Source: Nipponacmea schrenckii
Lineage: Eukaryota > Mollusca > Gastropoda > Lottiidae
Assembly (NCBI GenBank): GCA_030562195.1
Contig: JAUJPP010000001.1
Coordinates: 12,516,472 to 12,580,471, forward strand
Length of the DNA stretch: 64,000 nt
Direction of reading: 5' to 3'
The position numbers and the translations under genes were made by a program. A model generated the notes under the pieces. It was not told the DNA's origin. It did no database searches and was given only the letters and a program-made list of their open reading frames with translations. Shown here piece after piece: positions 1,068 to 47,860 of this stretch (positions are counted from its first letter, which is position 1; each line of letters begins with the position of its first letter).

Positions 1068-4142
<3,075 letters not shown>

Positions 4143-11500: not shown

Positions 11501-14500
11501 GGTGCTGTAGCTGTTAAACAATATTACCAATTAATGGTATCATCAGTGATGTGGGATGAACAGGAAATGGATGATAAATTTGCATCTGATTTAGAAAAGT
11601 TTGATGAGGACATGCAGGCTATTCTGGAGGTAAGACAGTCCAATACAAATATCAATTAGAGGAATAGATGGTAATTATTGAATTGGTGTTGGTCATACGT
11701 GTTTGATTCCTTCGGTTTTAGAAAAATTCTGATACCAAAGTGGTTTCCCTCCATTTTGATTTACAACCATCCTCCATTAGAATAGTGTAGCGAAGTGTTT
11801 TCTACTGCTTTTGTCATTTTATTGTTCCTATTTCTGCTTTACTTCAAAATTTAATTAAATTTTATCTGCTTGTTTCAGGTTTATTTTTCCTACCTTCAAA
11901 GTTGGATGAACCATGTACAGAATTTGGATGAAGCTTCACTCAGTTTGAAAAATTATTTAGTTGTTGAATGGACTTTTACAAAACAAATCTGTCCGTATAT
12001 TATAGGGGGAGAGGCTGAAGCTGGCAAGAGATTTAGGTAACTGGTAGTTGTGTGCTTTGTACTGTGCAAAATTAGTTTTTCATTACTGTACTCATTACAT
12101 GTCATGATAATCAAAGGCATTTTTATGTTGTTAAAGATGATTTGTAATCAAAATGGCGTCGAATAGCGAATCAAATTTTGTATACAGGATAAAGCAGAAA
12201 ATTTTTTAGATGGTGGCTGACTAATTGCCCAACTCCACTCTTAAATACAATGAATAAATATTGATATCTGAAATTTTAAAATGTCATACATATATTGATT
12301 CACTGCTAGGATAAATGCACTGATTAGTATAAATAGATTTGAGTTCCGATAAATGTTTTTCAGACGTAATAAATTGATTGACCAGGATTAAAAGCCTCAT
12401 ATGTGTCTGATGTATCCAGAAGAATGTCACTATAATCAAAATCATGTCAGGACATTAAGAGCTCAGATGTGACTTAAAAAAACATCCCTGATCAAAAGTT
12501 TTATGCTTTTTTTTTGTTTCAACACCATCAATTGATCTTGCACATGCACTGCCTTCGTCATTCAGAAACTGAATCCAAATCTTGAATCAAATTTGATAAA
12601 TTTTGATTTCAGTATGTTAGCTATTAGTTTACTGAACTCTATAACTGATCTACTGTATGATAATATAGATGAAATTACCAGACAACTGTTTGATATGACA
12701 AAAGGTGAAAATAATGATGAAGAAGAAAACAATGATGATGAACAATCTAATAGAGATAAAGCATCAGATTATAGGTTAGTTCGTAAAGAGTATCATATAT
12801 CAGATGCATTAAAAAGCTATGTACAATCTGTAGAATCAGATGGGTTTTGGTTTGTTTTTTTTTGTTCAGGTTACTGCTCACACTGAGGAATTTCTTCTTA
12901 AAATCAAACTAGTGCAACAATATTATTTATTTTTCATTATTATTATATAACACAAGCCTTTTTAATCTGATAAATTCTTAAGTATAAGTAATTGGGTAAA
13001 TATTCCAGAGCCTTGTGCTACATGAGTTGATCTGATTTCAGACATTGCCTACAACAAACATGTCGAGGTTTTAAGAATTTATTTAATGAAGCTAGAGAGA
13101 GAGCCTCTAAAGCTCTTGGTTTTGCAAAGATGCTGAGAAATGTAAGTAAGATATATAATTGATCTATTTAATATAATAGAGTATTATAATAGAGTATGTT
13201 TACATGCAGATTTTTAGACAATTGTGTTTGGGAGTGGGAACCAAAGAATAAGAATAGCCAATGTTTTTATAGAGATAATGCTTTGATGAGTAAGACAATG
13301 TAAAATATATTTGACATTCAAAAGAATTGTTTTACAAGAGCTATAGGTCTATTTCAATTTCATTTTTTGACTATTTTGTAACTTGTAATCAAGCATAAAA
13401 TTATACGTATTTTAGGATTTGGAAATAGCTGCTGATTTCAATGTCACGGTATCTACCAAACAATTGTTAGATAAGTTACAACTTACAAACCATGTCAGGG
13501 TAAGCACAAATCAGTTATTTAATAAGTCAGGACTTACTAACCATGCAAGGGTAAACACAGATCAGTTATTTAATAAGTCAGGTCTTACTTACCATGCATG
13601 GGTAAGCACAGATCAGTTATTTAATAAGTCAGGTCTTACTAACCATGCAAGGGTAAGCACAGATCAGTTATTTAATAAGTCAGGACTTACTGACCATGCA
13701 TGGGTAAGCACAGATCAGTTATTTAATAAGTCAGGTCTTACTAACCATGCAAGGCTAAGCACAAATCAGTTATTTAATAAGTCAGGCTTACTGACCATGC
13801 AAGGGTAAGCACAGATCAGTTATTTAATAAGTCAGGACTTACTGACCATGCAAGGGTAAGCACAGATTAGTTATTTAATAAGTCACGACTTACTTACTAT
13901 GTCAGGTGAAGCAAAAATCAGCTTTTTAATAAGTTACAAATTACTAACCATGTAAGTGTAAGCACAGATCAGTTATTTAATAAGTCAGGACTTACTAACC
14001 ATGCAAGGGTAAGCACAGATCAGTTATTTAATAAGTCAGGACTTACTGACCATGCAAGGGTAAGCACAGATCAGTTTTTTAATAAATCAGGACTTACTGA
14101 CCATGCAAGGGTAAGCACACATCAGTTATTTAATAAGTCACAACTTACTTACCATGTCAGGGTAAGCACAGATTAGTTATTTAATAAGTCACAACTTACT
14201 AACCATGTCAGGTGAAGCAAAAATCAGCTTTTTGATCAGTTACAAATTACGAACCATGTAAGGGTAAGCACAGATCAGTTATTTAATAAGTCAGGACTTA
14301 CTAACCATGCAAGGGTAAGCACAGATCAGTTATTTAACAAGTCAGGACTTACTGACCATGCAAGGGTAAGCACAGATCAGTTATTTAATAAGTCAGGCAT
14401 ACTGACCATGCAAGGGTAAGCACAGATCAGGTATTTAATAAGTCAGGACTTACTGACCATGCAAGGGTAAGCACAGATCAGTTATTTAATAAGTCACAAC

Positions 14501-17500
14501 TTACTTACCATGTCAGGTGAAGCAAAAATCGGCTTTTTAATAAGTTACAACTTACTAACCATATAAGGGTCGCACAGATCAGTTATTTAATAAGTCAGGA
14601 CTTACTAACCATGCAAGGGTAAGCACAGATCAGTTATTTAATAAGTCAGGACTTACTGACCATGCAAGGGTAAGCACAAATCAGTTATTTAATAAGTCAC
14701 AACTTACTAACCATGTCAGGGTAAGCAAAATCCGTTATTTAATAAGTCAGGACTTACGGACCATGCATGGGTAAGCACAGATCACTTATTTATTAAGCCA
14801 GGCTTACTGACCATGCAAGGGTAAGCACAGATCAGTTATTTAATAAGTCACAACTTACTAACCATGTCAGGTGAAGCAAAAATCAGCTTTTTAATCAGTT
14901 ACAAATTACTAACCATGTAAGGGTTAGCACAGATCAGTTATTTAATAAGTCAGGACTTACTAACCATGCAAGGGTAAGCACAGATCAGTTATGTAATAAG
15001 TCAGGACTTACTGGCCATGCAAGGGTAGGCACAGATCAGTTATTTAATAAGTTAGGCTTACTGACCATGCAAGGGTAAGCACAGATCAGTTATTTAATAA
15101 GTCAGGACTAACTAACCATGCAAGGGTAAGCACAGATTAGTTATATAATAAATCACAAGTTACTAACCATGTCAAGGTGAGCATAAATCAGTTAATTAAT
15201 AACCCACAATTTTCTTACCATGTCCGGGTAAGTACATATGAGTTATATAACCCACAACTTATTTACAATGTCGGGGTAAGCACTGATCAGATTTAAATTG
15301 TCATAAATTACTATACGTTACTTACTAATGATATACAGAAATACCTGTTATTTAGTTTCAATTTACCATATTGTTTGATAGTTATTGGGTTATATTGTAG
15401 GTAATGGCTCCAGTAAGTGCTGGTTATTTAATGTTTATACCTGACCGTATAACCTCCAATAAAAAATTGATATTACAATTATTAAATGTGACATGTGGTC
15501 GTGAAGAATCTACTCTACCGTCTGATTTAGAGAATAATAATGGTTATTTGGTCATGGTACGATGTGAAGGTACTGCTGATCATGTCTTAGAATGTCCTAT
15601 CTGGAATGGAGAAGTTTTAGAAGTGGCGCCGACTGCTGAAACAGCTATTGCTCTCTCTCATATTGAGGTAAAACCTGAGTATTTAAATTTTTAATATTCA
15701 AAGGGCTCTTTCAAAGAGGCTCTTTGTGTATTGCAGTTTTATTAATAAGGAGATATTGTTGTCAAAACGTTTAATTAACCAGACATAAAAGCAGAGTTCC
15801 AACTATCCATAAAAGTTTTTAGGATTTAAATCAGAAAAATGGCTCACTTTAAAATATATACTGTGAATGTTTTGTGAATGATAAAGTTCATGTGTTTGCT
15901 TATAATGTTCGAACTGTAGCCTGTCCATCTCAATAAGTAATGGATTATCTTGTCAACTGTTTCTATTCTTTGTTAAAAGTAAGTAGTATGAGGCGGACTT
16001 GATCTCTTTGAATTGGAAGCGTTTCTGGTTGCCAATTTATTATCATTTATGAATTATTCTTGATTCCCTGACCTATACTTGATGTATGACAGAGCTTATT
16101 ATCAATCGAACATTTTAGACAATGAACAGCTTATATGGCCAAATCAACAGCCTTGCTAAAGATCATAAAATTTTGAATGTGTGCAACTGCCACAGCTTAA
16201 AAGCATGTCTTGTCTTTAGGTTGAAGCATTGCTGGTTGTAGTTATACATTCATCTCAACTAGGAGATATGAGAAAAGAATTTGATAAAAAGATGGGAGAA
16301 TCTGTTGAATTAGTTAATGAACAAACCTCATGTCATCAAGCTATTGCAGAGTCTTTAGCTGAAATCAAGGTTAGTAGAACACATTCAGCTCATCTGAGTC
16401 ATTAATAAGCTAGGCAATAAATGTTATCCATTGTCTGAAAACGAAGTAGATTTTTTACAAATTTAATTGTCCTGATTTTTGTATTTGAAATTATAACATG
16501 AACACATAAATCATCCTATTTAGCATTGAAAATAACAATATTCACAAAACCACACAAAACAGTGGAGTATTTTTTTCACCATTTTTCTTTTTAAACATTT
16601 CAGACCATAGCAGTCCAATTGAGAGCCAAAGTAGCAAGAGCTATAGAACAAGTTGATGAGACTCTGAATTTTGATGAAATTTTACAACATGAAGAGAATG
16701 ATAGAAATCATTTGGTTAAAATCTATAGAGAAACAATGTTACAGGGCTATAACTTTGGTTTTGAGGTAAGTTGTTATGGATATTCATTATTGAGCTGTGA
16801 TAGCTGAGTTGTTGGCTAACCTTGAGGTTTTGAAACAGTATCTTCAGACTTTTATCCTGGTATGCCCCTATTATTGATACATTTGGTGGTGTTGACATTA
16901 TTTGGATGGGAAAAAGGTCCCTATAGGTTATATATGCATAAAAAATGATTATACAGTGCCCTTGTTCTGGCTAAAAAGACTCCTTGTTTATTAGCTAAAT
17001 GTTGCTATTATATTATTTTATATAATATTACATAGACAGAAATTAAATACCATAAAAAACAAAGTATCACATGCCCAGAGCTGAAAAAGCAATGATATTG
17101 TTTCCTATTTAGGTTGGTAAAGATATTTCACGTCTAGTAAGTGGAGAACAGAGACAGAAAATGGTACCAGGTTTAGTTAGTTTTGCTAAATATTGGATGA
17201 AATTTGTCTTGGAGAAATGTGAAACTGGTAGAGGTGGAAGACCAAGGTACATTGTTTGTATATAATAGTTGTCATTATATCAGCCACATTTGTAAGGATG
17301 TTATCACTTCTGTGTCAAAATCATACAAAAGATTGAAAATTTGTTTTATTGCTCATTTGAAAATCTGTCATCAGCCCCTATACATATATTCTTTATTTTC
17401 AGATGGGCTGTACCAGGCTTTGATTACTTGACTGTTGTCTGTGATCCTAAAGTATTAGCTTGTTTGTCAGATGAATCTTTCAAGGTAACTGCTACTTATA

Positions 17501-20500
17501 AGATGTGTAGATGATAAAACCTTTTAGGAATCAGCTTTAATAGCATGTAATAAGCAATTATTTTAGTAATGGTTTCTGACTTATTGCCCCTGACTCAATC
17601 TAAATATAAATATATACTTATTTTGTAGGAATTACAAAAGAATATACACAACTGTATCAATCATATCATTGGTTCTCCTGAATTAAGAACTCCACAAAGT
17701 CCCACTCATTTAGGTAAGTTTTTAGATAACTTGACTCTTAAGAACATTGAGATTCTGATTAGTTTAATGTGTAAAATGTATATGGGTCTGAAACAAAGTT
17801 GTTATGCAAATAACAAATTAAACTATCAAAATTAGTCAATTAAGGCTGCCCTAAAACTAATCATAAAAAGCGAAAGTAGAATATACTGGACATTATAAAA
17901 ACACATTTTAATGTGAAAAATGGATCTTAATTATCAGGCAATAATATTATTAATGCATGTTACCAAAAATTAAAATACAAGAATATATTCAAATCACTTC
18001 AGTCAATTGTCTTTTTAGGACAACACACGACACATAGATTACCATCATGGCCTAGCACTGGTGGTCAGCCATTCCGGCGGTCAGTATCGTCTAGATCTAT
18101 GCCTTCTGAAGTTGGTAATCAGTCAGGGTTGTCAACACCATCTACTCCAAGTCCTGTTAATACGGAATTGAGTAAGTGTACTGTTTACTTCAACATTTTC
18201 TGTATGTGTCTGTTTGAAACTTGCAATATCACATCAGTAAAACTACTTATATGTTGAATTATCATGGGTTTATATTTGTTTACATTACTTTTGATGTATG
18301 ATACCATTATATATGAAGTAATATTGCAGCCTAGTGTTAAGTGTTCATTTTACCCTTACATTTGGCTTCAGGTATTTTTAATAATGCTTCATGTGACTAT
18401 AACTAATAATGGCTAAAGCAGACATCTGTATAAACTTTAATTTTAATTTTTTGAACAATGAAACCTTAGAAACCTACAGATACATGGTCCCATAAGAACC
18501 TTAACATAGAGCTCAACTCTACATAAACTTAACTGTGTATGATATTTTGAATCACACCTGGATGTGCATATTTAACTCTTCCAAACTGATTAGTGGTTGA
18601 GTATATGAGGTTATGACCTCTACCTCTGATGCAATTCAGGGAGCTGCATGGCTTAGTAAGTAAGATGTATGGTTGCTAACCTGATGATCCAGGGTTCAAT
18701 TCCGACAAAGGTTGAAATGTAGGATTTCTCAACCCAGTTTCCCCTTGTCATTGATGCAGGTCAGAGAGGCTGACATGGAAAAAGCGTCGAGTTGTTCGGA
18801 TGGAACAATAAACAGGCTGTGCAAGTTGAAGACAGTTGGAAATAGTAAAAAGAGTTTGCTTATGCTGCTGTCCTGGCAAAATTCCCCTTATTGCATCCGG
18901 CATGGTAGTGCTTGTATTCATTACCTGTTAAGGCAGAAGATTAGGAAGTAAAACTCCATTCATTTCTGATGCCTTTTATTATGAGATCCATTATTTACTC
19001 TGACACAGGGAAACAACATAGATTATCTGACACTCAGATATGTTATGGTGGAGAACAAGGCCTATTGCTTGACCAGATTCAACGACGTAAATCTATAGGT
19101 TCGATCTCTCTTCTCCTGTAGTTAGTAAGGGCCTTTATGGATAGTTTAGTTGTCCATAAAATCTCATACTGTAGATAACTATTTTTTCCTGGCTTTGGCT
19201 TTAAAGAAAATATTCTAAATATCTGCTTTCCTAGATAATGGAGCAAATTTTAAATTGCCAGTATCACTTTCTGACTGTATCTCTGGGGGCTTATTCTCAA
19301 TTTAAAAAAAATCAAGAATACTGGGCCACAATATTAAAACTGTTGTTAATTCTACCTTTTAGCAAAGAAAGCAAATATTTAGAATATAACATTCCTTTGA
19401 TTAAGAAAGAGTTAAATAATATATAGTATTTGTGTACAGTTAAACAGTAAAAATGTCTACTGTTTGATTATATAATGACATTCTGACTGTGTGTAATTTA
19501 CATTTATAATCCAGAAAAGTTTTAAAAACAAAGTGATACTGCATCTTAGAATGTACATAAAATTTATTCATCAGTGAACTTTACCGGTGTCATAAAGTAA
19601 CAGAATCAATTAAAATCTGGAAAACTCACAAAACTAAGTCATTTTTGAAAAAATGTTTAATCAATTTATCAAGCTTTTGTAAATAATCGAATGCATCTTT
19701 ATGAATAATTTCTTAGTTTTTTGGATCTTTATTTTTTTTATTTTTTTTTTTTGGCAGCAGTTATATTACTGATGAATAGAATGGTTAATATAAGTATAAA
19801 TTTTATCAGTGAACTGATCGGTGTCATAAAGTAACAGAATCCCAGTAAAATCTTAAAACTCACAAAACTAAGTAATTATTGAAAAATCGCTTTATTAAGC
19901 ATTTTTCAGTAACCAAATGCATATTTATGGATAATTACTCATTTTTTCTTTCTTGATTTGTCAAATTATATAAGAATACTGTTATGTTACTTATGGCAGC
20001 TGGTTTATCTGATGTTGCATATATGCTCTTATTGGTCAAGTTAAAAAATTAAAAATTTTAAGTTATTCTAAGATGCAGTATTTCTTTAATATTGTGCTCC
20101 CTAACCTGCCTTTCTAATACTATGTTACAATTTTAATTTAAAGGTTATCACTTTTACTTTAAGTCGATATAATAAGGAATTGTCGAAAAAACTTGCAACT
20201 TATATGGTATGCCTAAGTGTTCATTTGACGCTACCCCACAAATTCATTCACATTAAAAATTAGAATGAGATGAAATCTAGCCTTGTCGCTTGATAAAATT
20301 TAATAACAATAAAATAACCGATCTTAAGCTATTTATCTTTTCTTGATTAATCACATTAACCTATTTATTATTAACAATTGTTTTGTGAACTAACTCATCA
20401 TTTGTGCTGTATGGAACAGGGGGAAAGTCCCTTATTATGCCCCATGTCTTTTATAGTATTTATTTAAAGAGATATAGCAAATAATCATAGTATCACCTAA

Positions 20501-23500
20501 GGCCAGCATATTTTCGTTAGTACTGTGGCTAATTGTTTTTGTAAGGGAGTTGAATTGGCCTCATCTAGTTAATCGAACATCATATATTGATGTAGCTCCT
20601 AAGGACCACACATCTTTTGTTGCTTTTTATGGGGTTTATTTTTATCCATTTTGGACATTTTCTACCCTTGAATATATAATATCTATAATATCCTGTCTGA
20701 GCAACTGAGGTCATGATTTGTTTGTTTGCATTAAATATATTTAATGATATAGTCTGGAAAATCTGTCAATTATCTCATTATAATATACAGTGAAACCTCT
20801 CCAAACCACATCATATATAAACTGCCTTCCACTGTTATCCAGCAAAATTGAAAAGTCATGACAGGATCACTATATAATACATAAGAGATAAACCCTGTTA
20901 AACCAGCAACCCGTCTAAACTGCAATCCGGCATCAAAATCAAGTCCCAAAGTTGTTTATAGTCATTTGGTTTCTGTAAACAGGCATATAAATTCTTTTAC
21001 GATTTACAGATTAATTAAGCAGTTGAGAACATTATAGATAAATTCCACTTGAGTCTAATTTTAAGATCAATTTCCATTGTTTAACTTATTAATTATTACT
21101 CTATTTAATTAGGCTTTATGGGTGTGGCATTTGAACATTTGGTCATATTTTTTCATTTCATAGATAAATTAGATAATTCAATGGAGGAGATAAATCCATC
21201 AAAGGATCTAAGAAATTGCCCATTTATATGAATAAACCTGCAACCCCACCAAACTGGCATTGATCACGGGCTCAGCCACCTCGTTTAGAGAGGTTTCACT
21301 GTTTATATTTTCACTCCTAAAATGAATGAGTTTGTCCTTCTCTTAAAAGAGTCCACTAATTTTCAGGCCTATCCAATGGACAGTCTTCACCTTTATCAAG
21401 AACTGATAGAGTTATGACTTTGATAAATAGAATAGATGAAAAGAGAAACCAAGTTTTACAAGATAGACATATGATTGGTAAAGTGACCAGTTTAAAAGCA
21501 AGTGATATAGACTATAGAATCAGTGTTCGAAGGGTTAATTTTAAATGGCAGAGAGGCATTAAAATTGGTAAGTTCATTTAATCATTGCTTAAGATTTAAA
21601 CCACATAACAAACTGCATGGCATTGCAATTCTTGCTAGTCTTAATGGGTTCAAATAAGTTGGATGTTAAAATCCATTCAATTTAATGCTTTGTGTAGAAT
21701 TGGTTACATTTGTTGTCTTTATAGGGGTGCATGTTTTATTTTTATAGAATTGTAGACCCATTGTGAACAATTCTACTGTATTTTATTAATCCTCTTAGCT
21801 TTCACCATTAATAAAACCCTGAAATTCTGATCTGAATCCAACTGATACAATTCATTTGTATGCATTCTATAAACAACAAAGAATTTAAATAGAAGTCTTA
21901 ATAACTGATGTAGATGAACAATCTTCCTGATATGTAGATAAAAATGGCAATAAATATTTTTTTTTTTTAAATTCATTAAATCAAATGTACAAAAGTGAAC
22001 AATCTTAGAAGGTTGTGTTTTACCTTAAATGTTTTATACTAGCTATGAATGGCCTATATTTTAAGAATGATTGCATTGTGGGTATAAATTTATAGGTGAA
22101 GGTCAATTTGGTAAAGTATATAGTGCTGTTAATGTTGATAATGGTATTTTAATGGCAATGAAAGAGGTATGTGTTTGGTCTTGTAGAATTTTTATTCTGT
22201 GGATCATTTCTATTACTTTTTGTGTATTATTCCATGCCTCATTATCATATAGACTCAAACTAATGAACAATTTTACGTTATTAGTCATTAGATCATATGA
22301 AAAACCTTTTAAACAAAGCAATTTATTTACAGATCTTTCCTGACAATGTTGTTAGATTCAAATTAACAAATTTTTAATTGCATTTCATTTAATTCCAGCT
22401 AAAATTTCTACCAAGTGATCAACAAGAATTTAAAGCAATTGCTGATGAAATTCGTAATTTTGAAGGAACAAGTCATCCTAATTTAGTTAGTTATTATGGT
22501 GTTGAAATACATAAGGTATGATATACATGTACCTTCAATATGCCTTTGCCTTTGACAAAAATAAAATATGGCCAATTTGTTTTGTCAATGTTTTATTTTT
22601 GAAAGAACTTAGTTTATCTTTATGACTATTTTGGTACTTATTTCCCTTGCTTTTGCAAATTAGCAACAAGACCATAATATGTCAGCTAATAGAGTTGTCA
22701 GTTAATATTTACAGCTCTATGTTAGTGATCTTAATATAATTATCATGTTCGCCATTTCTAATCTTAATTCATAAAGATATTTATATGCCCACATTATAAT
22801 GACATTGGTCGGCACTTTTACAATTGCCTTGTAAACATAAAGAATGGTGTGATCATTTATTTTGATGAGATCTTGGGGTTCAATTTTGACAGTTTTGTGA
22901 TGAATAGTTTTGGAGTTATTGCCCTTGACCTAGTCAAATTTTAACCTGTTGCGATCTCTGTTTAATCAGAAAATATACCGTTATAATATTATTCATAACC
23001 AGTGATCACTTACACTGAAACAATGAAAAGAGTTCTGAATGAAATGTAGATTTAATTTAAACAGGATGAAATGTTGATATTTATGGAATTCTGTGATAGA
23101 GGTACTATAGAAGAAGCAGCTAAACTAGGTTTACCAGAAGAATTAATTAGACGTTATACAAGATATATATTGATAGCTGTACAATATTTACATGATAAAG
23201 GTATCATACATAGAGATATCAAAGGTTAGTACATGTAGATTGTAGATAATGGCTACTTTGTTCGACAATATTAAATTGCATTAGTTTTAAACGCCTACAT
23301 GAAATTTTGACAGATTTAAATGAAACTCGTGTATGAAGTGTATGACTGAAGGTTGAACATTTCATTCTGGTGACTGTTACTGTACTGTTTTGTTTAAATT
23401 CAATGCTGATAGTGGGCATATATTACATTGCCTGGCAAGTTATCTTTTGTTTATGACGGTGTTAGCAAAATTGTCAGAGAGAGAAAAAACAAAACTGTCC

Positions 23501-25678
23501 TTATCAAATTTGACTACATCACTTTGTATTGACAATGTGAACTAAATTTTTATTCCTTAATAAATAGTTGAAGCGTAAAACATTAAAAGGTGATAATCTT
23601 TCCATAAATAGTTACAATTCTAATTTGAACTCTGCAGGTGCCAATATTTTCTTAACATCGGATGGTATATTGAAACTGGGAGATTTTGGAGCCTCGGTCA
23701 AATTGAAGAATTTAACCACAATGCCTGGTGAAGGTGTTTCTTTAACTGGAACTACTGGTAAATTCTTATTCTTTACTTTACTTGTATTTATATCCAGAAG
23801 ACAATCAAATTTAATAAGAATGGTATTGACCCAGATTATTCTAGAACTTTAGAGATTATCTTTCCAGAAGTTACTAAAGGCTTCTCAACTAATATTATGA
23901 TGCAATATGACCTGTTAAAACAGTGTGCAACAATGTATCACTTCTGGATTGTTAAATTGGCTTCTTGATTGTTCTAGAAATATAGATTTTTATAAATAGG
24001 CTAGTAGCTAAGGCTTAAGGGAATTCAATCAAAGTGCTTGCTTACTTACTGAATGTATGATTTGTGTATTATACCTTGTGCTTAATATATTGTGCTAATA
24101 TTTGGATTATTGTTGCTTCATTGTGCATTCATTATTAGATTTAATAAATCTACAGTTACTTTTTGATCTGTGGTCTATTCTACGGGTTTCGAGGAAGATT
24201 TACAACAGTTGTGCCTTTAGTTAAGGTTATCAAAAAGACCAGAAAAATCTTGCTTGCTACTAATTGCAAAGACTGATGCTGCATTCAACACATGCTGTGA
24301 ATGTAGTGTTCATGGCCTTCTCGCCTTTTAAAGTTTAATCCCAAACATAACAAAAATGGCGGGCAGTATCAAAAAGAATAAAGACTAATTCATATATATA
24401 ATGTGTCAATGTGAAGGTTGTATAAGGAGATGTTTTAAGTTTTCTCTATATGTGTAAGAGAGGTATCAAATGCAACATGAACCTTTGCTAGATTTTTTAA
24501 TGTATACATTTAGGCCTACATTTATCATATAACTGATGATAATTTGTAACATGCCCTTTTATTACTGTGAAAGATAATATATATTAATTTTATATTATTT
24601 ATTGATACATTTTAGCATACATGGCTCCAGAAGTGATCACACAAAATAAGGAATATGGTCATGGTAGGTCTGCTGATATCTGGAGTGTCGGTTGTGTTGT
24701 TATCGAGATGTCTACTGGCAAGGTGAGTATTGGGCATTCATAGTAATGGCATATGAGTCAAAGACAATTTATCTACTAAAACTTTAATCATGTATGTCAA
24801 ATGAAGTATCAACATTGAAAATATGAAACCAAATTTCACTCCTTTCTAATTGTGCATGTGATTTGTATTATAGAGGCCATGGTTTGAGTTAGAGAATAAT
24901 TTCCAGATTATGTTTAAAGTTGGTATGGGAGATAAACCTGCAATTCCAGAACAATTGAGTGCAGAAGGCAAAGATTTCTTATCTCATTGTTTTGAAACTG
25001 ATCCGAATGACAGATGGACAGCTAGTAAACTACAAGACCATAATTTTACAAAGGTATTTATCTTATTTAAAGATGCAAAGCAAAATTTGTATGTGTATAG
25101 TAAACATCAACAGCATCAATTTGCACAATTCCATTTTCAAATCAGATCTCTGTCGTTCCTGCCATTCTACTTAAACAAAGTGTTTTATGATGTCACTCCA
25201 TGAGATCGATAATCGGATGTTGTTATAAAAACATTATCGAGTGAAAGTAGATTAATGTATGTTACCGGCAATTAAAATACAAGTAAAGAATGATACTTTA
25301 TTTGGTTTACGGTAAAGAACTTTGATATTGCAAACCTTAGTTCTCGTAAAAACTTTGGTATTGAAAAGGGAATAAAAATACGACAGAATTAGATATTCTA
25401 TTGTTCGGTATAAACCAGACTACACATGTAGTAAATGTAGGATCCTATCATTTCTAAAATGTTAAAACTAAATAGTTTTGCTGTTCCCCTCATAAGAGAC
25501 CACCTTCATCCAGCGACTGTTTTTGAATATTCCCTTGAGTGGTCTCTGAATACAGGTACAGTATATAACAAAATATCTTAAGGTGCATATGCTATGATTT
25601 GAAATAGTATGATATTTTTTTTTATATTTATTTCAGATCTATGATGAAGCTGAAGGAATATCAGACGTTCAGTTTTAA
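5596..25678 (+). CDS. MAP3K4: Mitogen-activated protein kinase kinase kinase 4 (MEKK4)
   Basis: Ser/Thr kinase that phosphorylates MKK3/6 and MKK4 upstream of p38 and JNK, in animals activated by GADD45 proteins. Exons: 5596-5669, 8804-10550, 11032-11304, 11471-11629, 11879-12036, 12613-12774, 13042-13141, 13416-13499, 15401-15667, 16220-16369, 16604-16765, 17113-17246, 17403-17484, 17629-17713, 18019-18171, (doubtful 19009-19098), 21367-21567, 22096-22166, 22399-22515, 23065-23224, 23638-23757, 24616-24722, 24874-25053, 25637-25678. Phases agree throughout, giving about 1,595 aa (1,625 with the doubtful exon); the human protein has about 1,608. The C-terminal kinase domain (about 1327-1590) shows GEGQFGKVY, the catalytic Lys in MAMKE, HRDIKGANIF, DFGAS and YMAPEV. 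The long N-terminal part matches the MEKK4 regulatory region ([20 protein letters not shown]). Intron 8 is a 51-bp tandem array derived from exon 8. The family call is secure. Confidence 0.97.
7136..8790. mobile_element. Repetitive element with hairpin ends in MAP3K4 intron 1
   Basis: The left end has the hairpin TGCCC-loop-GGGCA (7136-7154), and the right end carries the near-palindrome CTTGCCCAGCAAG (8762-8774). Between them are degenerate core repeats built around phrases such as gatgaaactt, ccacaattgctt and ccttgttct. This is an old, diverged relative of the 28.7-kb element in the opposite orientation. It has no coding capacity. The right end stops about 15-30 bp before the exon 2 acceptor at 8803. 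Confidence 0.6.
13449..15290 (+). repeat. 51-bp tandem array copied from the MAP3K4 exon 8 / intron 8 junction
   Basis: About 35 tandem copies of a 51-bp unit fill intron 8. The first copy (13449-13499) is the last 17 codons of exon 8, [17 protein letters not shown]. The second starts at the true donor, 13500, and encodes [17 protein letters not shown]. The exon match to vertebrate MAP3K4 (DLEIAA...) shows the exon is ancestral and the array derived. Nearly every copy recreates AGG|GTAAGC, a strong 5' splice site. The exon frame stays open to a stop at 13806-13808, where a 1-bp deletion in the copy ending at 13804 breaks it. Later copies vary by substitutions, by TCAGG|TGAAGC variants and by small deletions. 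Confidence 0.95.
18625..18972 (+). mobile_element. tRNA-derived SINE in MAP3K4 intron 15
   Basis: The head resembles a tRNA with an A-box-like tggcttagtaagtaaga (about 18649) and a B-box gggttcaattcc (about 18691), the internal polymerase III promoter of tRNA-derived SINEs. The body runs to an ATTTC-type tail, ccattcatttc. TCTGATGC occurs at 18625-18632 and again at 18965-18972, a possible 8-bp target-site duplication. The tail segment (gtaaaactccattcatttc) is shared with the fragment at 32.2 kb. Confidence 0.75.
19522..20089. mobile_element. MITE with ATACTGCATCTTAGAAT inverted ends
   Basis: ATACTGCATCTTAGAAT near 19537 is repeated as its exact reverse complement near 20066-20082. TTAA tetramers flank both ends (19522-19525 and 20086-20089). 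Subterminal segments (tcagtgaac...ggtgtcataaagtaacagaatc) are repeated inside the element at about 19573 and 19808. They recur in reverse complement near 54.16 kb. The element is non-coding and belongs to the same broad TTAA group as the element at 1.5 kb. Confidence 0.75.
20788..21301. mobile_element. MITE with CAGTGAAACCTCTC inverted ends
   Basis: The left end reads CAGTGAAACCTCTCCAAACC, and the right end is the reverse complement of CAGTGAAACCTCTCTAAACG, matching over most of 22 bp. The 514-bp interior has no open frame of note and contains repeated phrases such as aaaccagcaac and aatccgg. The CAGT-type ends fit a pogo/Tc1-like non-autonomous element, although only the left flank shows the expected TA. 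It lies in the last intron before the kinase-domain exons of MAP3K4. Confidence 0.75.
22795..23445. mobile_element. Two ends of the hairpin-end repeat family on either side of MAP3K4 exon 20
   Basis: A left-end-like segment starts at about 22795 (tgcccacattataatg, then a core fragment ending ttattgcccttgacctagtcaa). A right-end-like segment ends near 23440 (gggcatatattacattgcctggcaagttatc). Exon 20 of MAP3K4 (23065-23224) lies between them. They may be two diverged solo fragments or one element interrupted by older gene sequence. No coding capacity is seen in the repeat parts. Confidence 0.45.
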
Positions 25679-28675: not shown

Positions 28676-28680
28676 TGAAG

Positions 28681-30452
28681 AAGATAGCTTGCCAGGCAAG
28701 GTAACATACGCCCACTGGCAGCATTGAATTTGAAAAATAAATAGAGCAATGACTCAAAAACATTCACTAAATGGATATTGAAGTCAAGGGCAAAAACTCA
28801 AAAACACCAAGTTTCATCAAAATCCATTGAAAATTGTAGCTTCTATTGAACCCACAATAAAATTTTGACACAATCTTACTAAGTCAAGGCCAATAACTAA
28901 AAAACTGTTCATCGCAAAATCTTCCAAATCGAACTTGACCGCCCTCTTATCAATTCCAATGCTCATACCAAGTTTCATTAAAATCCATAGATAATTGTAG
29001 CTTCTATAGTGTCTATAGAAAATGAATTTTTACGCAATTTTACTTAGTCAAGGGCAATTAATCATAAACTATTCATCAAAAAATCGTCAAATTTGAATTT
29101 CTGATAAAAACTGTAGCCTATATCGTGGATATAACCCAAATTTGACGCGTTTTTACTAAGTCAAGGGCAATAACTCAAAAAACATGCATGCGATAATTTC
29201 CATTTTCGAACTTGACCGAGATATCATCAATATATACATGTAAACCAAGTTTCATTAAGATCGGATAAAAACTGTAGCCTCTATTGTGGATACAACCCAA
29301 ATGTGACTCGTTTTATAATAATAATAATAATAATAAACTCTTTATTTTACATGGGTCAGAATTAGGCCCAATACACAAGGACATGGTCCTGTCTCACATT
29401 CAGCCCATGGGGCAATACATTGGAAAAAAAAAAAAAAAAAAAAAAAATAATATAAAATAAAATCGAAAATACATAATATCTCAATATACAATTCGTCTGA
29501 AATACTAAAAATACACAAGTACATGTGTATCAAATGGACAGAGATATGTTCCGGCGATCAAGTACATGACCACAAAATAAATATACAATACAATACTAAG
29601 TCAAGTGCAATAACTCAAAAACCGTTCATGCAATAATTTCCATTTTCGAACGAGGTATCATCAATATATACATGTATACCAAGTTTCATTAAGATCGGAT
29701 AAAAACTGTAGCTTCTATCGTGGATACAACCCAAATTTGACGCGTTTTTACTAAGTCAAGGGCAATAACTCAAAAAACGTTCATGCGAAAATTTCTATTT
29801 TCAAACTTGACAGAGATATCATCAATATATACATGTATACCAAGTTTCATTAAGATCGGATAAAAACTGTAGCCTCTATTGTGGATACAACCCAAATTTG
29901 ACACGTTTTAACTAAGTCAAGTGCAATAACTCAAAATCCTTTCATTCGATAATTTCAATTTTCGAACTTGACCAAGATATCATCAATATATACATGTATA
30001 CCAAGTTTCATTAAGATCGGATAAAAACTGTAGCCTGTATTGTGGATACAACCCAAATTTGACGCGTTTTTGCTAAGTCAAGGGCAATAACTCAAAAACC
30101 GTTCATGCGAAAATTTCCATTTTCGAACTTGACCGAGATATCATCATTATATACATGTATACCAAGTTTCATTAAGATCGGATAAAAACTGTAGCCTCTA
30201 TTGTGGATACAACCCAAATTTGACGCGTTTTTACTAAGTCAAGTGCAATAACTCAAAAACCGTTCATGCGATAATTTCCATTTTCGAACTTGACCGAGAT
30301 ATCATCAATATATACATGTATACCAAGTTTCATTAAGATCGGATAAAAACTGTAGCCTCTATCGTGGATACAACAAATGTGGACGGACCGACGGACGGAC
30401 GGACGGACAGGGGCGACGGCAATATACGTCCACATTTCCATGTGGGCGTATA
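28681..30452. mobile_element. Full-length element with hairpin ends and about eight 160-bp core repeats
   Basis: The left end holds the near-palindrome CTTGCCAGGCAAG (28688-28700) followed by gtaacatacgcccac. The right end holds a stem with arms at 30425-30435 and 30440-30450 (tacgtccacat / atgtgggcgta). In between are head-to-tail core repeats of about 160 bp, recognised by the recurring gacgcgtttttactaagtc near 29741, 29903, 30063 and 30223. A GGAC-rich run (30381-30410) precedes the right end. The design, tandem cores between conserved ends, resembles the pearl-type non-autonomous elements described in bivalves; that comparison is from memory of the family. It contains no transposase. It sits between convergent MAP3K4 and UBE2J1. 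Confidence 0.8.
29315..29593 (-). mobile_element. Retroposon fragment nested in the 160-bp-core element
   Basis: An unrelated segment interrupts one core repeat between gactcgtttta and ctaagtcaag. On the minus strand it ends with tgtaaaataaagagtttatt followed by a (TTA)n tail, as at the 3' ends of some LINEs and SINEs. It also contains a 24-bp homopolymer (29424-29447). No reverse transcriptase frame is present, so it is a truncated copy. I could not settle its target-site duplication. Confidence 0.6.
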
Positions 30453-30723
30453 AAAATTGTTGCTTGGAGCCCTTGATATAATCTGCATCCCTGATAAGAA
30501 TAATCTTGGGAAATATAAAAAAGAGACGTCAAACAGAATAGCTATAACTATATCCAATATATAGGTATGTACAATAATTTTAACATAACATTCAAAATAA
30601 CAAAACAATTCTTGAAAAGCTGATGTATTTAAGGGGTAAATGAGATATCACAAAATAAATCTGGTACCTTTTCAAGCATTAGAAATAATGCTGTGAAGTG
30701 TCCAAGTCGTCATTGCTTTCTTT

Positions 30724-33700
30724 TCAAAGTTCTTCATTTAAAAATCCCCAATTAAATGCAACATACAAACGTCGTAAAACCAAAAGTCCTATTGCACATA
30801 CTAAAAATATTATCAAAAACAAGGAAAAGGTCTCATTTGACCTCACATGCACAGGTAGATCAGCATTTCTGTAATTTTGAGTTGGTGCTGGTCTTCTTTG
30901 TCGCAAACTTTCTGATGTTGTGGCTGTAGAAATTGGAGAAGTTAATGATGAAGCTGAAGAGGTAATTTGAGTTGAGCTACTTGCAGGTTCAGTAGCATGT
31001 GTGCTACTATTAGTTGATGGTAGAGTCTGACTAGAAGTAACTGGAGTACTGGAGGTCTCTGTAGATGATGATCCAGGACTGGCAGAGCATGCAGATGATT
31101 GGGAAGAAGATGGTAAATTTGTCATAGGATATTGTGGCCATGCTCCCATATTTTGCAGTGGAAATCCAGGATATAACATTGGTGGTGCATAAAATGGCAT
31201 GGGGAATCTAGGAGCCATAGTATTGCCAGTTGCAGCAGGAGGAGGCAGTGGATAAGGAAATCCAAATGGTGGAGTCATCATGCCTGACTGTGCACCATTG
31301 GCCATAAATGGGTTCCAGGGGAACTGTGGTGACTGACCATTATTGGTAGTTGCTGATGCTGATTCAGTAGTTGATGTTGTTGCTGATTTTGTAGCTGATG
31401 TTGTGGATGATGTTGTGGATGATGAAATACTTTCTGCTTGGGAACTACTGGACTGTGTACCGTCTTTGGGTTTTTCACCTTGAAAGTCAATCTGAGAAGC
31501 TAACTCCTTTGCCTCTTGAGTTGTTTTCTCAGATGCTTTAGTTACTGGAGGTAGAATGTGACCAACACATCCACAATTTTCACATTTCCAATCATTTGAT
31601 CTGAAAATGGACACAGTATATCAGAAGAGTTTGAATCTCCTAAATTGGGATTGAATTTTGAAACAATTATAATTCTTAATGTCTGTATATATATGATATG
31701 TATCATCTTTGGAAGAAATAGAAGCAGGAAAGCAAACAATGTGAACACAAATACGTTTGGAATAACATACAGGTAATGTTATTATCATGTTATATTTACT
31801 TTATAATGTTACTTGTAAGTGTTTGGAAATGTTGTATGTAATAAATCGAGAGTAGTGTATATCTAGTGTTTTTAAAATCTATAACATATTATAAATAGCT
31901 TACTTCTTAGCCAGAACCTTTCTTTCTTCTGGTGTGTAGTCCAAAGAACCAATGGCTCCTGCACCATGAGTGGGCATAAAACCAATAATGGCAAGTAATG
32001 CTGTCCTGACTAAAATGAAAAATTAAAATTGACATAAGTCAAGTGGATGCTTAAACTGCAAACTAGATTGTTGTTGATAATCATAGTAGTTGATAGTTAG
32101 CTTGGCTTCGTAATTGACAAATATACATTTTGCAACATGTACAAAAAGTCAAGATTGAGATTCGGATCAACAAAAGTCATCTAAAGATTTATACTCTAGT
32201 TCTAACAATGGACCGTCTTCATTAGCCCATAAGGTGCAGAAGAGTAGGACGTAAAACTCCATTCATTTCATTTCATTTCATTTCATTTCTAACAATGGAA
32301 TTCATACGAATGATCAGAGGTAAAAACCTTGCACAACTGATAAAATTATTTAAACATATCAGTTCATGCGCTAACAATAATAAAATATGACTAACTTGAC
32401 CATGATGGCTGCCAGGACTCTGGGTGATGTCCAGAGATACTTAAACAGATCTTTTTATAAACTTCAAATCGTCCATTTGGCTACAATTATTAATACAATA
32501 AACTTTAAAATATATTTGGACTAAATTAGTACTGACTACCATATTCCAGGACTTTTAAGAGTGCATAGTGTCAATGATGTGGCAAGGTTTCATAATCTAT
32601 ATTGGGCAGTTCTGTTACACATAATAACATATTTTCCATAGGAAATATACCAATAATCTAGCAACAGAATGATACTACAAATATAGCACAATAGTATAAT
32701 ACTATAAATATATCTCGATAGTATATATACTAAGAATACATCTCAATAGTATAATACTATATATATAGCTCAATAGTATAATACTATAAATATATCTCAA
32801 TGGTATAATACTATAAATATATCTCAATGGTATAATACTATAAATATATCTCGATCGTATAATACTAGAAATAATCTCAAAAGGATAATACTATAAAAAC
32901 ATCTCAATAGTATAATACTATAAATATATCTGAATGGAATAATACTATAAATATATCTCAATACTATAAATATATCTCAAAAGTATAATACATGTACTAT
33001 AGATATATCTCAATAGTATAATACTATAAATATATCTCAATAGTATAATACTATAAATATATCTCAATAGTATAATACTATATATATAGCTCAATAGTAT
33101 ATTACTATAAATATATCTCAATGGTATAATACTATATATATATCTCAATAGTATAATACATGTACTATAAATATAGCTCAATGGTATAATACTATAAATA
33201 TAGCTGAACAGTATAATACTATAAATATATCTCAATAGTATAATACATGTACTATAAATATAGCTCAATGGTATAATACTATAAATATATCTCAATGTTA
33301 TAAAACTATAAATATAGCTGAACAGTATAATACTATAAATATATCTCAATAGTATAATACTATAAATATATCTCAATGGTATAATACTATAAATATAGCT
33401 CAATAGTATAATACTATAAATATATCTCAATAGTATAATACTATATATATAGCTCAATAGTATAATACTATAAATATATCTCAATGGTATAATACTATAA
33501 ATATAGCTGAACAGTATAATACTATAAATATATCTCAATAGTATAATACTATAAATACATCTCAATAGTATAATACTATATATATAGCTCAATAGTATAA
33601 TACTATAAATATATCTCAATAGTATAATACTATAAATATATCTCAATAGTATAATACTATAAATATATCTCAATAGTATAAAACTGTAAATATATTTCAA

Positions 33701-34617
33701 TGGTATAATACTATAAATATATCTCAATAGTATATATACTACAAACATACTTTCAATTACATAATAGTATATATATCTTCAATAATATAATATACATACT
33801 GTCAATAATATAATACTTGGTGGTTTCATTGGATAATCTGGTGGTAAAATAATTCGTCCATGATAAATTCCACCATCAAAATCAGAGTCAGCTGGGCCTC
33901 GAATTGTAAAATGCCATTCAAATAAATTATCCTTAAAAAAACACAAAAGATTATTTTTATATATGTAAGATAATATCATTTGAATAAGAACTAATTATGA
34001 CTAAATACAGCTTAGGCTATTGTGTAATATAATGTTAAAGATTGTCTAATGCAGTCATAAATTTTTCTTTTGAAAATATTATTCATTTACAGTGTGCATA
34101 AAAGAGGGAATGTTTACATCTAATGGCTGAACATGATATTGTTCTGTTGGTTCTCTTAGTTCTTGAGCTTCTTTCATCAGCCTTTTGACAGCTGAAAAAC
34201 AAATCAACATATTCATATTTTCTCGTTTGTGTTTTTAAAAAATCTTAACATTATAAAAAAAAGGTAAGGAACCATGTTTGAAACCTCCACTTCAGGTACA
34301 CAACTGTCTATGACAGATCTTAGAGCCCAGAATGAAAAAAAAATACAAAAACAAATAGGTATAGATCTACTGAAAAAAATGCCATTACCCACTGTGAATA
34401 AGCTGTTGCACTTCAGTCATCTGCAATATGACCGAGAAATGACAACAAAATAACACTAATTTATTTGTTCTCAGGTCTTATTAAATGGCAACAACAAAAA
34501 TGGTAAAACTGAAAGTTAATTGTTTTTCTTTTGAATATTTACTATCAACGGAAATCAGAAAAAAAAACAAAAGCAAATCAAATCACCTGGACTGCGCATA
34601 CTATATTGGTTCTGCAT
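30724..34617 (-). CDS. UBE2J1: Ubiquitin-conjugating enzyme E2 J1, ER tail-anchored
   Basis: E2 enzyme of ER-associated degradation, anchored in the ER membrane by its C terminus with the catalytic domain in the cytosol. Exons in coding order: 34587-34617, 34118-34191, 33800-33931, 32396-32480, 31904-32009, 30724-31600; phases agree, giving 434 aa. The UBC fold includes SPAVKRLMKEAQEL, DNLFEWHFTIRG and PPDYPMKPPSIILLT. The catalytic Cys is in KKICLSISGHHP at about residue 91, the position used in human UBE2J1. As in this subfamily, NGRFE replaces the usual HPN region. A long Ser/Thr/Pro-rich linker makes it about 115 residues longer than the human protein (318). A hydrophobic segment near the end (LFLIIFLVCAIGLLVL) followed by RR is the tail anchor. 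Intron 3 is mostly a 27-bp minisatellite. Confidence 0.96.
32200..32299 (+). mobile_element. 5'-truncated SINE tail with 13-bp target-site duplication
   Basis: TTCTAACAATGGA flanks the insert on both sides (32200-32212 and 32287-32299). The insert carries gcagaagagtaggacgtaaaactcc and an (ATTTC)n tail, matching the 3' end of the SINE at 18.6 kb. The intact duplication indicates recent retroposition into intron 4 of UBE2J1. Confidence 0.85.
32670..33793. repeat. 27-bp minisatellite in UBE2J1 intron 3
   Basis: About 40 copies of a 27-bp AT-rich unit; on the minus strand the unit encodes Y-I-Y-S-I-I-L-L-R. Some copies carry a short catgta insertion. The array runs up to the exon 3 donor (33794-33799). 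The last six codons of exon 3 (AGT ATT ATA TTA TTG ACA) resemble the unit (AGT ATT ATA CTA TTG AGA) and lie in the same frame. One TGA (33779-33781) separates the exon frame from a 267-codon open frame in the array. That open frame is a by-product of the repeat and is not called as a gene. Confidence 0.93.
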
Positions 34618-34922
34618 CTTGTCTTTAACAGAAGCAAGTTAATTTGCCCAAACAAGATTACAGGTAGTTAACTTCGCTAAATAAACAAATCAATTCCAAA
34701 ACAGAATGGGAACAAATTTCTAGACGTGGCTTCACAGAATATTGACAAAACAAACCCAAAGTTTAATGTAATAAGTCCATTCATTAGTCCATAAGAATAG
34801 ATCTATTTGTACTGACCAATGGTAGAGCGTTTTACATGCCAATCTCACATTTAACTTCCGCCGGAAGCACATGTTATTGTTTACAACGACAATGGACAAA
34901 CTGAAAGTAGAGAACAAGAAAA
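34618..34922. promoter_or_regulatory. Divergent promoter of UBE2J1 and NSUN4
   Basis: Only 305 bp separate the UBE2J1 start (minus, 34617) and the NSUN4 start (plus, 34923). At 34854-34868 ACTTCCGCCGGAAGC holds two ETS cores (GGAA) in inverted arrangement, a typical feature of divergent housekeeping promoters. A CCAAT pentamer is at 34816-34820. There is no clear TATA box. The promoter role is inferred from position and motifs. Confidence 0.6.
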
Positions 34923-38635
<3,713 letters not shown>

Positions 38636-38965
38636 TTATAAGTTTTAAATTCGGAGTACTCCCAATCAATTCTACCTCATCTGTCATAAGGAATGAATGT
38701 GGATCTTGTTATCGTTATGGGGAAATAAAGGCTGGTTTATCACGTGACTAGACAAATGACCCCATTTATTGAAGCGAGTGATAGTAAAAATGAAAATATT
38801 GACAAATGACAATAATTCTTAATTGTTTTTCTCGTATTGGAATCACTATTATGATTTTGTTGTATCCACTGTGGTCTAGAGTCATATTTCTATACATCAT
38901 TACTCCCCTTCTTAAATAGAGCTCTTTTGTTAAGGGGGTAAAATTAAACCCCGTATTAATAAACG
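38636..38965 (+). promoter_or_regulatory. NSUN4-DDX10 intergenic region with CACGTG E-box
   Basis: This 330-bp gap holds the NSUN4 polyadenylation region (AATAAA at 38723-38728; another overlaps the stop at 38626-38631) and the DDX10 promoter. TCACGTGAC at 38740-38748 is a perfect E-box of the MYC/USF type, which would suit a ribosome-biogenesis gene. Function is inferred from the motif and position. Confidence 0.5.
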
Positions 38966-41900
38966 ATGGATGTTAGAAAATTGGTACCACAAACTGGAAA
39001 ATTTCCCAAGAAACGGGATAAATTCAATCAAAAACACAAGAAACATGTTCCTGAAGTTAAAAAGAAAAAGTGGCAGCTAATTGATGAAGAGGCCGCTGAA
39101 CTGAAAGGGAAGTACTCAGAGGTAAAACACTTTTTTAGAGTCTAAAAAATGTAAACAAAACCACGTGTGTCTTCGTGACATATTCCAAGGTAAGGCCTAT
39201 GAAATACGATAGTCTATTACAGACATAATAATTTTATATAATTTATACAGCTAACCATCCTATATTTACAGCCAATGTCTTGTAGAATATTATTCTTTTT
39301 TGTTATAAATTTCACATGTCAAAAACATTGAATGTGATGATTCCATTTCTATAAGAATAAGTAAACCACTCTGGCCCAACCCAGTTTTTCAGATATGATA
39401 ATAAATGATAAATATGGATTTGAACATGACTGGTTGAATGATTATTATATTTTAATGTTATGAGTTAATAAGTTGACACATTTTCAACCAAATGACGTAA
39501 AGAACCAATGCTCTAACCGCTGTGCTTTAGAACCACAACCTTGTAGTATTGCATCAGTTTCACTCCAATTACCCAAACATTAATATTTATTTGATTTTTA
39601 GATAAATACTTCAAAAGTTGAAATAGAACCACAACCTTGTAGTATTGCATCAGTTTCACTCCAATTACCCAAACATTAATATTTATTTGATTTTTAGATA
39701 AATACTTCAAAAGTTGAAATAGAACCACAACCTTGTAGTATTGCATCAGTTTCACTCCAATTACCCAAACATTAATATTTATTTGATTTTTAGATAAATA
39801 CTTCAAAAGTTGAAAAGTTTACAGATTTTCCTCTTTCAAAGTTAACATTAGAAGGTAAATATTGTTTTGCCTATTCTCATAAAAATTATGCAGAATTTAT
39901 TTGTATTACTACTTAATGGTTTGTATGCATAAATTGAAAAAAAGGTATCAAAGTATGATTCATAGGCAATAGAGGTTTGCTTCTCATGACCTGCAAGTAT
40001 TTCCTGTCAAGAAGTAAAATCTGATAATCTCAAGAAATAAGGCCACCTCAATACTATTTAAAATCATGAAAATTATTTAACATGTCACTTGACATTTCAT
40101 TAATTGTTCTTCATTATTTCTGTGTTTTATAGGTTTAGCATCAGCTAAATATATTAAACCAACAGATATCCAAAGAGAAGCTATAGGTTTGGCATTACAA
40201 GGACAAGATATATTGGGTGCTGCTAAAACAGGTTCTGGAAAAACTTTGGCATTTCTTATCCCTGTAAGTAAATGTCATTATTTTGTTATGGATTATATGT
40301 TTTTGAGAAGTTGTTTGGTTGGTCCTATTCGAATCCCTGCCCTTGTGTGTAGAATTTTTTGGAGTTTTATATATTCAAAAAATGGAGTGTGGAGCTTTAA
40401 TAGATTTACTAAAAGGAATTCTGTGGCTTAAAATTAACATAAATCATGAAAATTTTAAACTTGGCCAATATATTCATATATTCATTCATATATACGAGCT
40501 GCCAGAATCCTTATATAATCTGATTACCTTATAGACATAAAAGGAATGCTAATTTACTTCCACAATTTTTGAGAACTTGAATTTTATGTCCAGTCTTGGA
40601 TGCAGTATCACTTGAAGAAACCTTGGTTTAGAGAATATTTTATTTCATTTTTTATTTCTACTTATTTAGTTCTTATACTCATGAAGTTTATGTCAATTCT
40701 TCACATTTGTTTGTAACAAATTTATGTATCTTGCAGATATTGGAACATTTATACAGAGAAAAATGGACACCTTTAGATGGTATGGGGGCTTTAATTATCT
40801 CCCCTACCAGAGAACTAGCTTTTCAAACATTTCAAGTTTTAAAGAAGATTGGTACAAGCCATGATTTTTCGGCAGGATTAGTGATTGGGGGAAAGGTAAT
40901 ACTTTTAATTTAAAATGTTTTTGTTTAGTATTAAGAATTTATACTTTTTGAATCTTAATTCACACTTTCATCAAATTAAATAATCATCAGTCCATTATAA
41001 TGTTATTGTATTTTAAATCATGCTCAGTATCTCAAACATAAGTCTTAGTAACTAAAAGAACAGGCTTAAAATCTTAAAAGGGTCTCATTCTTTATCCTTA
41101 TGAACAGTAACTTGAATTAATAAGCTAAGCTAATAGTCTTCACAGCTCATTTACCAAATTTAAGATTTTTTAAATCCATGTGTGTACAGAATTATCTGAA
41201 GTGAGAGTCAGAATAACAACTTTTTTTCTTGGTACTCAATCATATATAGAAAAGTAGTATATTATATGCATATACTTAATGATCAAGATAGTGATATATC
41301 CAGACCTTGTGTATTGAATAGACTATAGAGCTATACTATGGTTTATATCTGTAGCATGTACGAGAAGAAAAAGAGAGAATGACAACAACTAACATAGTAG
41401 TGTGTACACCAGGTAGACTATTACAACATATGGGAGAAACATATAATTTTACAGCTGATTCTCTTCAAATATTAGGTAGGTGTCTTATTTTTGAGAATTG
41501 TTATACATGTATCTTTACTAACCCATATATTTCATAGACTGCACTGTTCTGAAGCTGATATATTGTTAAAAGTTCATTAAAGTATTTTAATTTATTACAT
41601 TACAGTATTGGATGAAGCTGATAGGATATTAGATTTGGGGTTTGCTGAAACAATGAACGCTATTATAGAAAATTTACCTTCCACTAGACAAACTTTATTA
41701 TTCTCAGCTACACAAACCAAGTAAGAATTTGAATTCATGTCAAAATGTTATCTCAATGATACTTGGTTTAGATTGGTAAATTTATAAGTCAGTTACAATG
41801 CTAATTTCTGTCCAGTGACTAATCGCAATGGCCCACCCTACCTAACTTGTACTATTCTCTAAATATTTATTTTGTTGACTCAAACAGCAACAGTGTCCAA

Positions 41901-46924: not shown

Positions 46925-47860
46925 CTTTTGGTTTACATACACTGTCATACCAGAACCCATTATTTACATACACAGCCATACAAGTATTCTTGGTTTGCAT
47001 ACACTGTTATACCATTACTATTGATTTTTATACAATATACCAGTACCCTTGGTTTTTATACTCCCACATTATAATGTGGTCGTATATTGTCGTCACCCCT
47101 GTCGGTCCGTCGGTCCATCCACAATTGGCTTGTGAACGTGATAGATACTACAGTTTTCAATGGATTTGAATGAAACTTGCTGTGATATTTATATTGAAGA
47201 GATCTCGAATAAGTTTGAAATTGGCGATTTTTCAATAAATGGTTTTTGAGTTATTGCCCTTGACTTAGTCAAAACGCGTTAAAATTGGCTTTAAACGCTA
47301 TAGAGACTACAGTTTTCATTGGATTTGAATGAAACTTGCTGTGATCATTTATATTGATGAGATCTTGGATGAATTAGAAATAGGCGATTTTTCGATGAAC
47401 GGTTTTTGAGTTATTGCACTTGACTTAGTTAAAACTCTTCAAAATTGGATTGTGAACGCGATAGAGATCACAATTTCCATTGGATTTGAATGAATTTGTG
47501 TCATCAATTATATTAATGAGATCTTGCACAAGTTTGATAGTGATGATTCTTGGGTAAACGTTTTTTTTAGTTATTGCCCTTGCCAAAACGCGTCGTCGGA
47601 ACAGACTTGTGAACACCATAGAGACAACAGTTTTCATCTGATTTGAATGAAATTTGGTGTGATCATTGAAGTTGATGAGATCTTGGTTTTTATTCACCGT
47701 CTAACCAGTTCTCATTGTTTTTGTTTTTTTCACTGTCATACCAGAACTCTTGGTTTTTATTCACTGCCATACCAGTACTTATAGTCTGCATACACTGCCA
47801 TGCCATATCTCTTGTTTTGCATAAATACTGTCACATCAGTACTCATAGCTTACACTGTAA
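46925..47860. repeat. Short tandem array (about 33-40 bp unit) split by a mobile element
   Basis: Irregular repeats of the type catacactgtcataccagtactcttggttttta occupy 46925-47058 and resume at 47690-47860. They lie just past the DDX10 stop (46823). The array is interrupted by the hairpin-end element at 47059-47690. No coding function. Confidence 0.75.
47059..47690. mobile_element. Truncated copy of the 160-bp-core element, reverse orientation
   Basis: It starts with the hairpin cccacattataatgtgg (about 47063) and the cgtatattgtcgtc and gtcggtccgtcggtcc stretch, the reverse complement of the right end of the 28.7-kb element. Three to four core repeats follow, each ending in the phrase gagttattgcccttgacttagt. 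The other terminus (CTTGCCAGGCAAG type) is missing. TTGGTTTTTAT occurs at both borders, but that phrase is also part of the surrounding array. Confidence 0.75.

Follow-up and report, generated by a model that had tools for sequence, protein, structure and literature searches.

Tandem arrays across the splice junctions of four neighboring genes in a lottiid limpet, most simply read as mirages

In the window, the whole 64,000-nucleotide stretch of limpet DNA analyzed here, TRF identified four tandem arrays with units of 51, 27, 50, and 96 bp in the neighboring genes MAP3K4, a UBE2J-type gene, NSUN4, and DDX10. The unit spans an exon-intron border in all four arrays, at donors in MAP3K4 and the UBE2J-type gene and at acceptors in NSUN4 and DDX10. 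Both the locations and periods given in an earlier note on this DNA and its claim that each unit crosses a splice junction are borne out, the former by TRF and the latter, for all four, by exon-to-unit alignments. We consider it likely that these arrays are “mirages,” i.e., minisatellites, each derived independently from a short tandem duplication that took in a splice site and was tolerated as intron growth. The features concerned are the following:

13416..13499, plus strand: MAP3K4 exon, ending AGG/GTAAGC; the coding copy of the 51-bp unit occupies its final 51 nt (13449-13499)
13449..15290, plus strand: 51-bp array across the MAP3K4 5' splice site (13499/13500), from TRF and copy-by-copy alignment; its end is approximate, the final copies being decayed
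15401..15667, plus strand: next MAP3K4 exon after the array, from frame and homology
32672..33817, minus strand: 27-bp array across the UBE2J-type 5' splice site (33800/33799), with 33800-33817 within the exon
33800..33931, minus strand: UBE2J-type exon ending ...PPSIILLT, with donor GTATGT at 33799
36029..36206, plus strand: 50-bp array across the NSUN4 3' splice site (36178/36179), with 36179-36206 within the exon
36179..36313, plus strand: NSUN4 exon, from a PDB match
39528..39815, plus strand: three identical 96-bp copies across the DDX10 3' splice site (39793/39794), from TRF, each made of 74 nt of intron and 22 nt of exon
39794..39854, plus strand: DDX10 exon, from frame and a PDB match

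MAP3K4 was named from protein matches, and NSUN4, the Ubc6/UBE2J family member, and DDX10 from PDB matches, which in the case of the UBE2J-type gene leave J1 and J2 undistinguished. The best protein matches of the window's MAP3K4 and NSUN4 genes are entries of Lottia gigantea, a patellogastropod mollusc of the Lottiidae, with 98% identity over the searched part of MAP3K4 and 298 identical residues among the 345 aligned in NSUN4, so that the limpet is probably closely related to L. gigantea and not a member of it. Exons were picked by hand from reading frame, splice signals and, in parts, homology; the gene finder over-predicts tiny exons. Splice sites were scored with matrices of metazoan frequencies. 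Elsewhere in the window are four likely genes named from their reading frames (194-490, minus; 1003-4113, plus; 52447-53067, plus; 56698-56982, minus), which we take to be two starts resembling short-chain dehydrogenases, one on each strand, an exon of bHLH type, and a NUBP-like ATPase.

The solved chains of NSUN4, Ubc6, and DDX10 align gap-free through the junctions. A single unit crosses the MAP3K4 junction in 45/45 relatives aligned (the first 45 of 120 listed, from 816 matches, over the stretch shown), the largest extra insertion nearby being three residues. Since homologous proteins thus run through each junction without a repeat, the exon-adjacent copy is the coding one and the rest intronic, and we infer that splicing uses the exon-adjacent copy.

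The MAP3K4 array is reported by TRF at 13481-15202 (period 51, 33.9 copies). Over the final 29 nt of the exon, agreement with the unit is 23/29, a value reached nowhere among 61,942 positions on the plus strand beyond the array; over the whole unit, agreement with the exon end is 35/51, likewise equalled at none of 61,920. The unit may be wholly coding by origin, although the upstream 22 nt by themselves match weakly (12/22, with 480/61,920 positions doing as well). The border copy has a similarity of 0.69 to the consensus and most inner copies 0.9 or more, and a variant unit recurs at spacings of 306, 305, and 354 bp. GTAAGC is kept in 24 of the 33 intronic copies and GT in 28. The reading frame stays open across several copies of the array. 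In a partial transcript model (13 exons, less than the whole transcript), the first five of 37 donor-like sites leave the frame open, adding 0, 17, 34, 51, or 68 residues, and the other 32 would lead to a premature stop if used.

RNA hairpins masking the inner MAP3K4 donors were considered and not relied on, folding being weak relative to shuffles in the three stretches compared (z of 0.16, -1.34, and -2.10). Among 24 GGGUAAGC donors scored, the authentic donor, with an unpaired probability of 0.105, was more unpaired than 22 of the 23 others (0.012 to 0.097) and less so than one (15276, 0.311). Separately, the start of the exon after the array (15401-15460) has the 10-mer GTTATTTAAT in common with the 51-bp unit. 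The match score was reached by 3 of 2000 shuffled units in what was one among several comparisons made, and GTTATTTAAT occurs twice elsewhere in the window (outside 13400-15350, both strands); the shared 10-mer may be due to chance.

In the UBE2J-type gene, the TRF array (32672-33792, period 27, 41.1 copies) extends about 1.1 kb past the exon, and the exon end coding SIILLT aligns with the 27-bp unit. Copies near the exon have a similarity of 0.74 to 0.81 to the consensus. Past the exon a single site, AAA/GTATGT at 33750, scores above 3; the authentic donor scores below 3 with the matrix used. On the minus strand, one frame of the array is open for 277 codons (32948-33778), because the unit length is divisible by three and the unit contains no stop. 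An in-frame tandem repeat is also observed at 31357-31424, in likely coding sequence for the Ser/Thr/Ala-rich tail of the same gene.

The two acceptor arrays are shorter. The NSUN4 array (TRF, 36024-36197, period 50, 3.5 copies) comprises copies starting at 36029, 36079, 36129, and 36179, and the exon's initial 28 nt can be aligned to the unit with one 3-nt gap. AG is lost at one of the three upstream copies, the copy at 36129 being preceded by CG. In DDX10 (TRF, 39528-39815, period 96, 3.0 copies, 100% matches), the last 22 nt of every copy are those that open the exon, placing acceptors before 39602, 39698, and 39794. As read from the sequence, the choice of the first or second acceptor would bring a stop into the mRNA. 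No overlap of the two ends was read at the join of the duplication. A further in-frame tandem repeat lies at 46686-46744, in likely coding sequence for an acidic region close to the end of DDX10.

The four units share no sequence relationship, and none of them finds a match elsewhere in the window that is clearly better than those of shuffled units, which argues that the arrays arose separately. On the same grounds we rejected a single shared mobile element of the introner-like kind, dispersed and carrying splice sites. In all but DDX10, whose copies are identical, divergence is greatest at the border and the inner copies are nearly uniform. Together with the recurring MAP3K4 variant, this pattern is as expected of unequal exchange.

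We propose the following course of events. A DNA error would duplicate a stretch across an exon-intron border; the duplication would be nearly neutral, with the mRNA unchanged and the extra copies becoming new intron, since the copy adjoining the rest of the exon remains available to the spliceosome. Unequal exchange or slippage would then expand and homogenize the intronic copies, a process consistent with the observed pattern, while the exonic copy, held by selection on the protein, would drift out of step with them. Finally, inner splice signals decay, as is observed in NSUN4 and the 27-bp array. DDX10, with its intact 96-bp copies, would represent a fresh, young stage; NSUN4 a small and older one; and the arrays of MAP3K4 and the UBE2J-type gene stages of large-scale amplification. 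With GTAAGC in 24/33 MAP3K4 copies and 32/37 donor-like sites leading to a stop, the growth can be neutral only if the first donor is chosen accurately, and the three identical acceptors in DDX10 count against the account of tolerated growth.

How often such an arrangement would arise by chance was estimated for 49 hand-chosen exons with 93 borders in 8804-46251, or one border per 403 bp. The probability that a randomly placed unit crosses a border is 0.12, 0.06, 0.12, and 0.24 for lengths of 51, 27, 50, and 96 bp, respectively, placements wholly in exons being excluded. The expectation in the earlier note that random duplications should rarely touch borders is therefore too strong, at about 12% for a 50-bp unit and about 24% for a 96-bp unit. 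Arrays were picked by eye from TRF (period of 20 or more, score of 50 or more), with the row at 33745 merged with that at 32672 and exon ends without GT (21568 and 40881) dropped from the borders; the coding array at 46686 falls just outside the stretch modeled. Among the seven non-coding arrays, four span a border against 1.0 expected (nominal P of 0.006, post hoc, in a window noticed for this very pattern). The expectation is 0.93 (P of 0.006) when two coding arrays are added and 0.64 (P of 0.001) when the dispersed 161-bp array is left out. The excess of border-spanning arrays is thus modest.

When each of the 93 borders was scanned against 350 bp of its own intron, four scored 36 or more and the other 89 scored 29 or less. 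Of the control positions, 532/3000 reach 36, mostly since arrays fill much of the non-coding sequence, and outside the five named arrays 35/2452 do so. Decayed mirages at other borders were rejected, none of the 89 remaining borders scoring above 29. Unit length divisible by three, seen in three of the four units, was likewise set aside as a signal (chance probability, 0.11).

Four border-spanning arrays against about one expected leave room for a real border preference that tolerance alone may not give. In this lineage, splice junctions could be hot spots at which tandem duplications start, e.g., by breakage or template switching in the course of transcription; the excess would then reflect origin rather than tolerance. 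The observed excess and the recurrence of such arrays at several lancelet genes described in the available texts of PMC3087553 and PMC3902484 would fit this reading, which we consider unlikely: it is drawn post hoc from one window, the units have no common sequence, 89/93 borders show nothing comparable, and the DDX10 join, with no end overlap read, indicates no particular motif. For MAP3K4 alone, there is some chance, which we regard as real though well below even, that duplication of a coding 51-bp block gave rise to copies that became intron (Rogers-type growth or gain). The agreement of the exon end with the whole unit and the array being in frame for several copies speak for this, and the poor match of the upstream 22 nt, no better than at 480 other positions, speaks against it; such an origin is compatible with the mirage account. 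A bolder and decidedly improbable reading is that lottiid limpets, like lancelets, duplicate across splice junctions genome-wide beyond what unit length and tolerance give, with introns growing from their borders and the MAP3K4 array serving as an in-frame donor ladder that adds 17-residue blocks to some transcripts.

The remaining explanations carry far lower probability. That redundant splice sites are kept by selection, or that the MAP3K4 array gives useful isoforms with added 17-residue blocks, might be read from the five in-frame donor-like sites of the partial transcript model and from the retention of GT in most MAP3K4 copies. We hold this to be highly improbable, as conservation across the MAP3K4 array is 0.93 in donor columns versus 0.92 in other columns and, at codon positions 1, 2, and 3, is 0.88, 0.92, and 0.95, being highest at the third and lowest at the first, so that neither splice-site nor coding constraint is visible by these two measures among the 33 intronic copies. 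In addition, an acceptor is lost in NSUN4 (1/3) and donors are lost in the 27-bp array, where past the exon a score above 3 is reached by one site. The option of selection for redundant splice sites, raised by the earlier note, thus finds no support here, and neither does its suggestion of repair templated by spliced RNA. For the latter, one could cite the 10 nt that the MAP3K4 unit shares with the next exon, yet the window contains none of the four exon-exon junctions, either exactly or by the central 16-mer, and the DDX10, NSUN4, and 27-bp units consist of exon joined to intron; we find it scarcely credible. An assembly artefact affecting at least the three DDX10 copies is very unlikely; their perfect identity over 288 bp would be in line with it, as would the aberrant draft assembly that the available text of PMC3087553 reports for a lancelet mirage; the other three arrays carry copy-specific changes. 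It is the option of tolerance, also named in the earlier note, that holds up: the arrays can be explained by ordinary duplication and minisatellite turnover, with the mRNA presumably restored by exon-adjacent splicing.

Two further arrays, at 29594-30374 (161 bp) and 47123-47686 (160 bp), have related sequences (score, 211; shuffle maximum, 31) and probably represent a dispersed repeat family. A GGAC run follows the 161-bp array, and GTCGGTCC repeats precede the 160-bp array. Neither spans a border in the hand-made exon list.

Arrays of this type are not without precedent, contrary to what had been supposed from the sequence. In lancelets, tandem duplications of exon-intron boundaries, at both donors and acceptors, are described as mirages in the available text of PMC3087553, with Adh3 and the globins BflGb6 and BflGb9 as examples, to which PMC3902484, as far as available, adds PGBD5 and troponin C. 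According to the former text, regular splicing is seemingly undisturbed, array length is unstable, and border units escape homogenization. The limpet arrays are alike in being border-spanning tandem repeats at donors and acceptors, with units within 10-160 bp and a single-copy coding exon; the escape of border units is seen in MAP3K4 and the 27-bp array and not in DDX10. Unlike the lancelet cases, as far as those are described there, they occur in a limpet, in four consecutive genes and with up to 34-41 copies, and are known from the sequence of one assembly. In potato, a border-crossing duplication led to a new intron (PMC4974935, available part). The Rogers model, as cited in the text seen of PMC3087553, similarly has duplication across an intron-exon boundary supply extra splice sites; its outcome is a new intron, whereas in the limpet the intron that lengthens looks pre-existing and no new exon can be made out. 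For human genes in segmental duplications, the accessible portion of PMC2812944 also describes internal tandem repeats at exon-intron borders; these have in common with the limpet arrays a minisatellite expansion at borders that may alter gene structure, but concern recent paralogues, and half of them lie in coding sequence.

The papers on mirages that were found deal with lancelets, and no report of mirages in molluscs or limpets was found in the literature searched, whose reach excluded most subscription papers. The limpet arrays belong to an already named kind, in an animal group for which we found no earlier report, and their simplest explanation is tandem duplication that was tolerated, together with minisatellite turnover. 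The occurrence of four such arrays within 26 kb of limpet DNA suggests that the process extends beyond lancelets and that growth from the borders may be a frequent way for introns to lengthen. With their identical sites, MAP3K4 and DDX10 offer natural tests of spliceosomal choice between equal sites.
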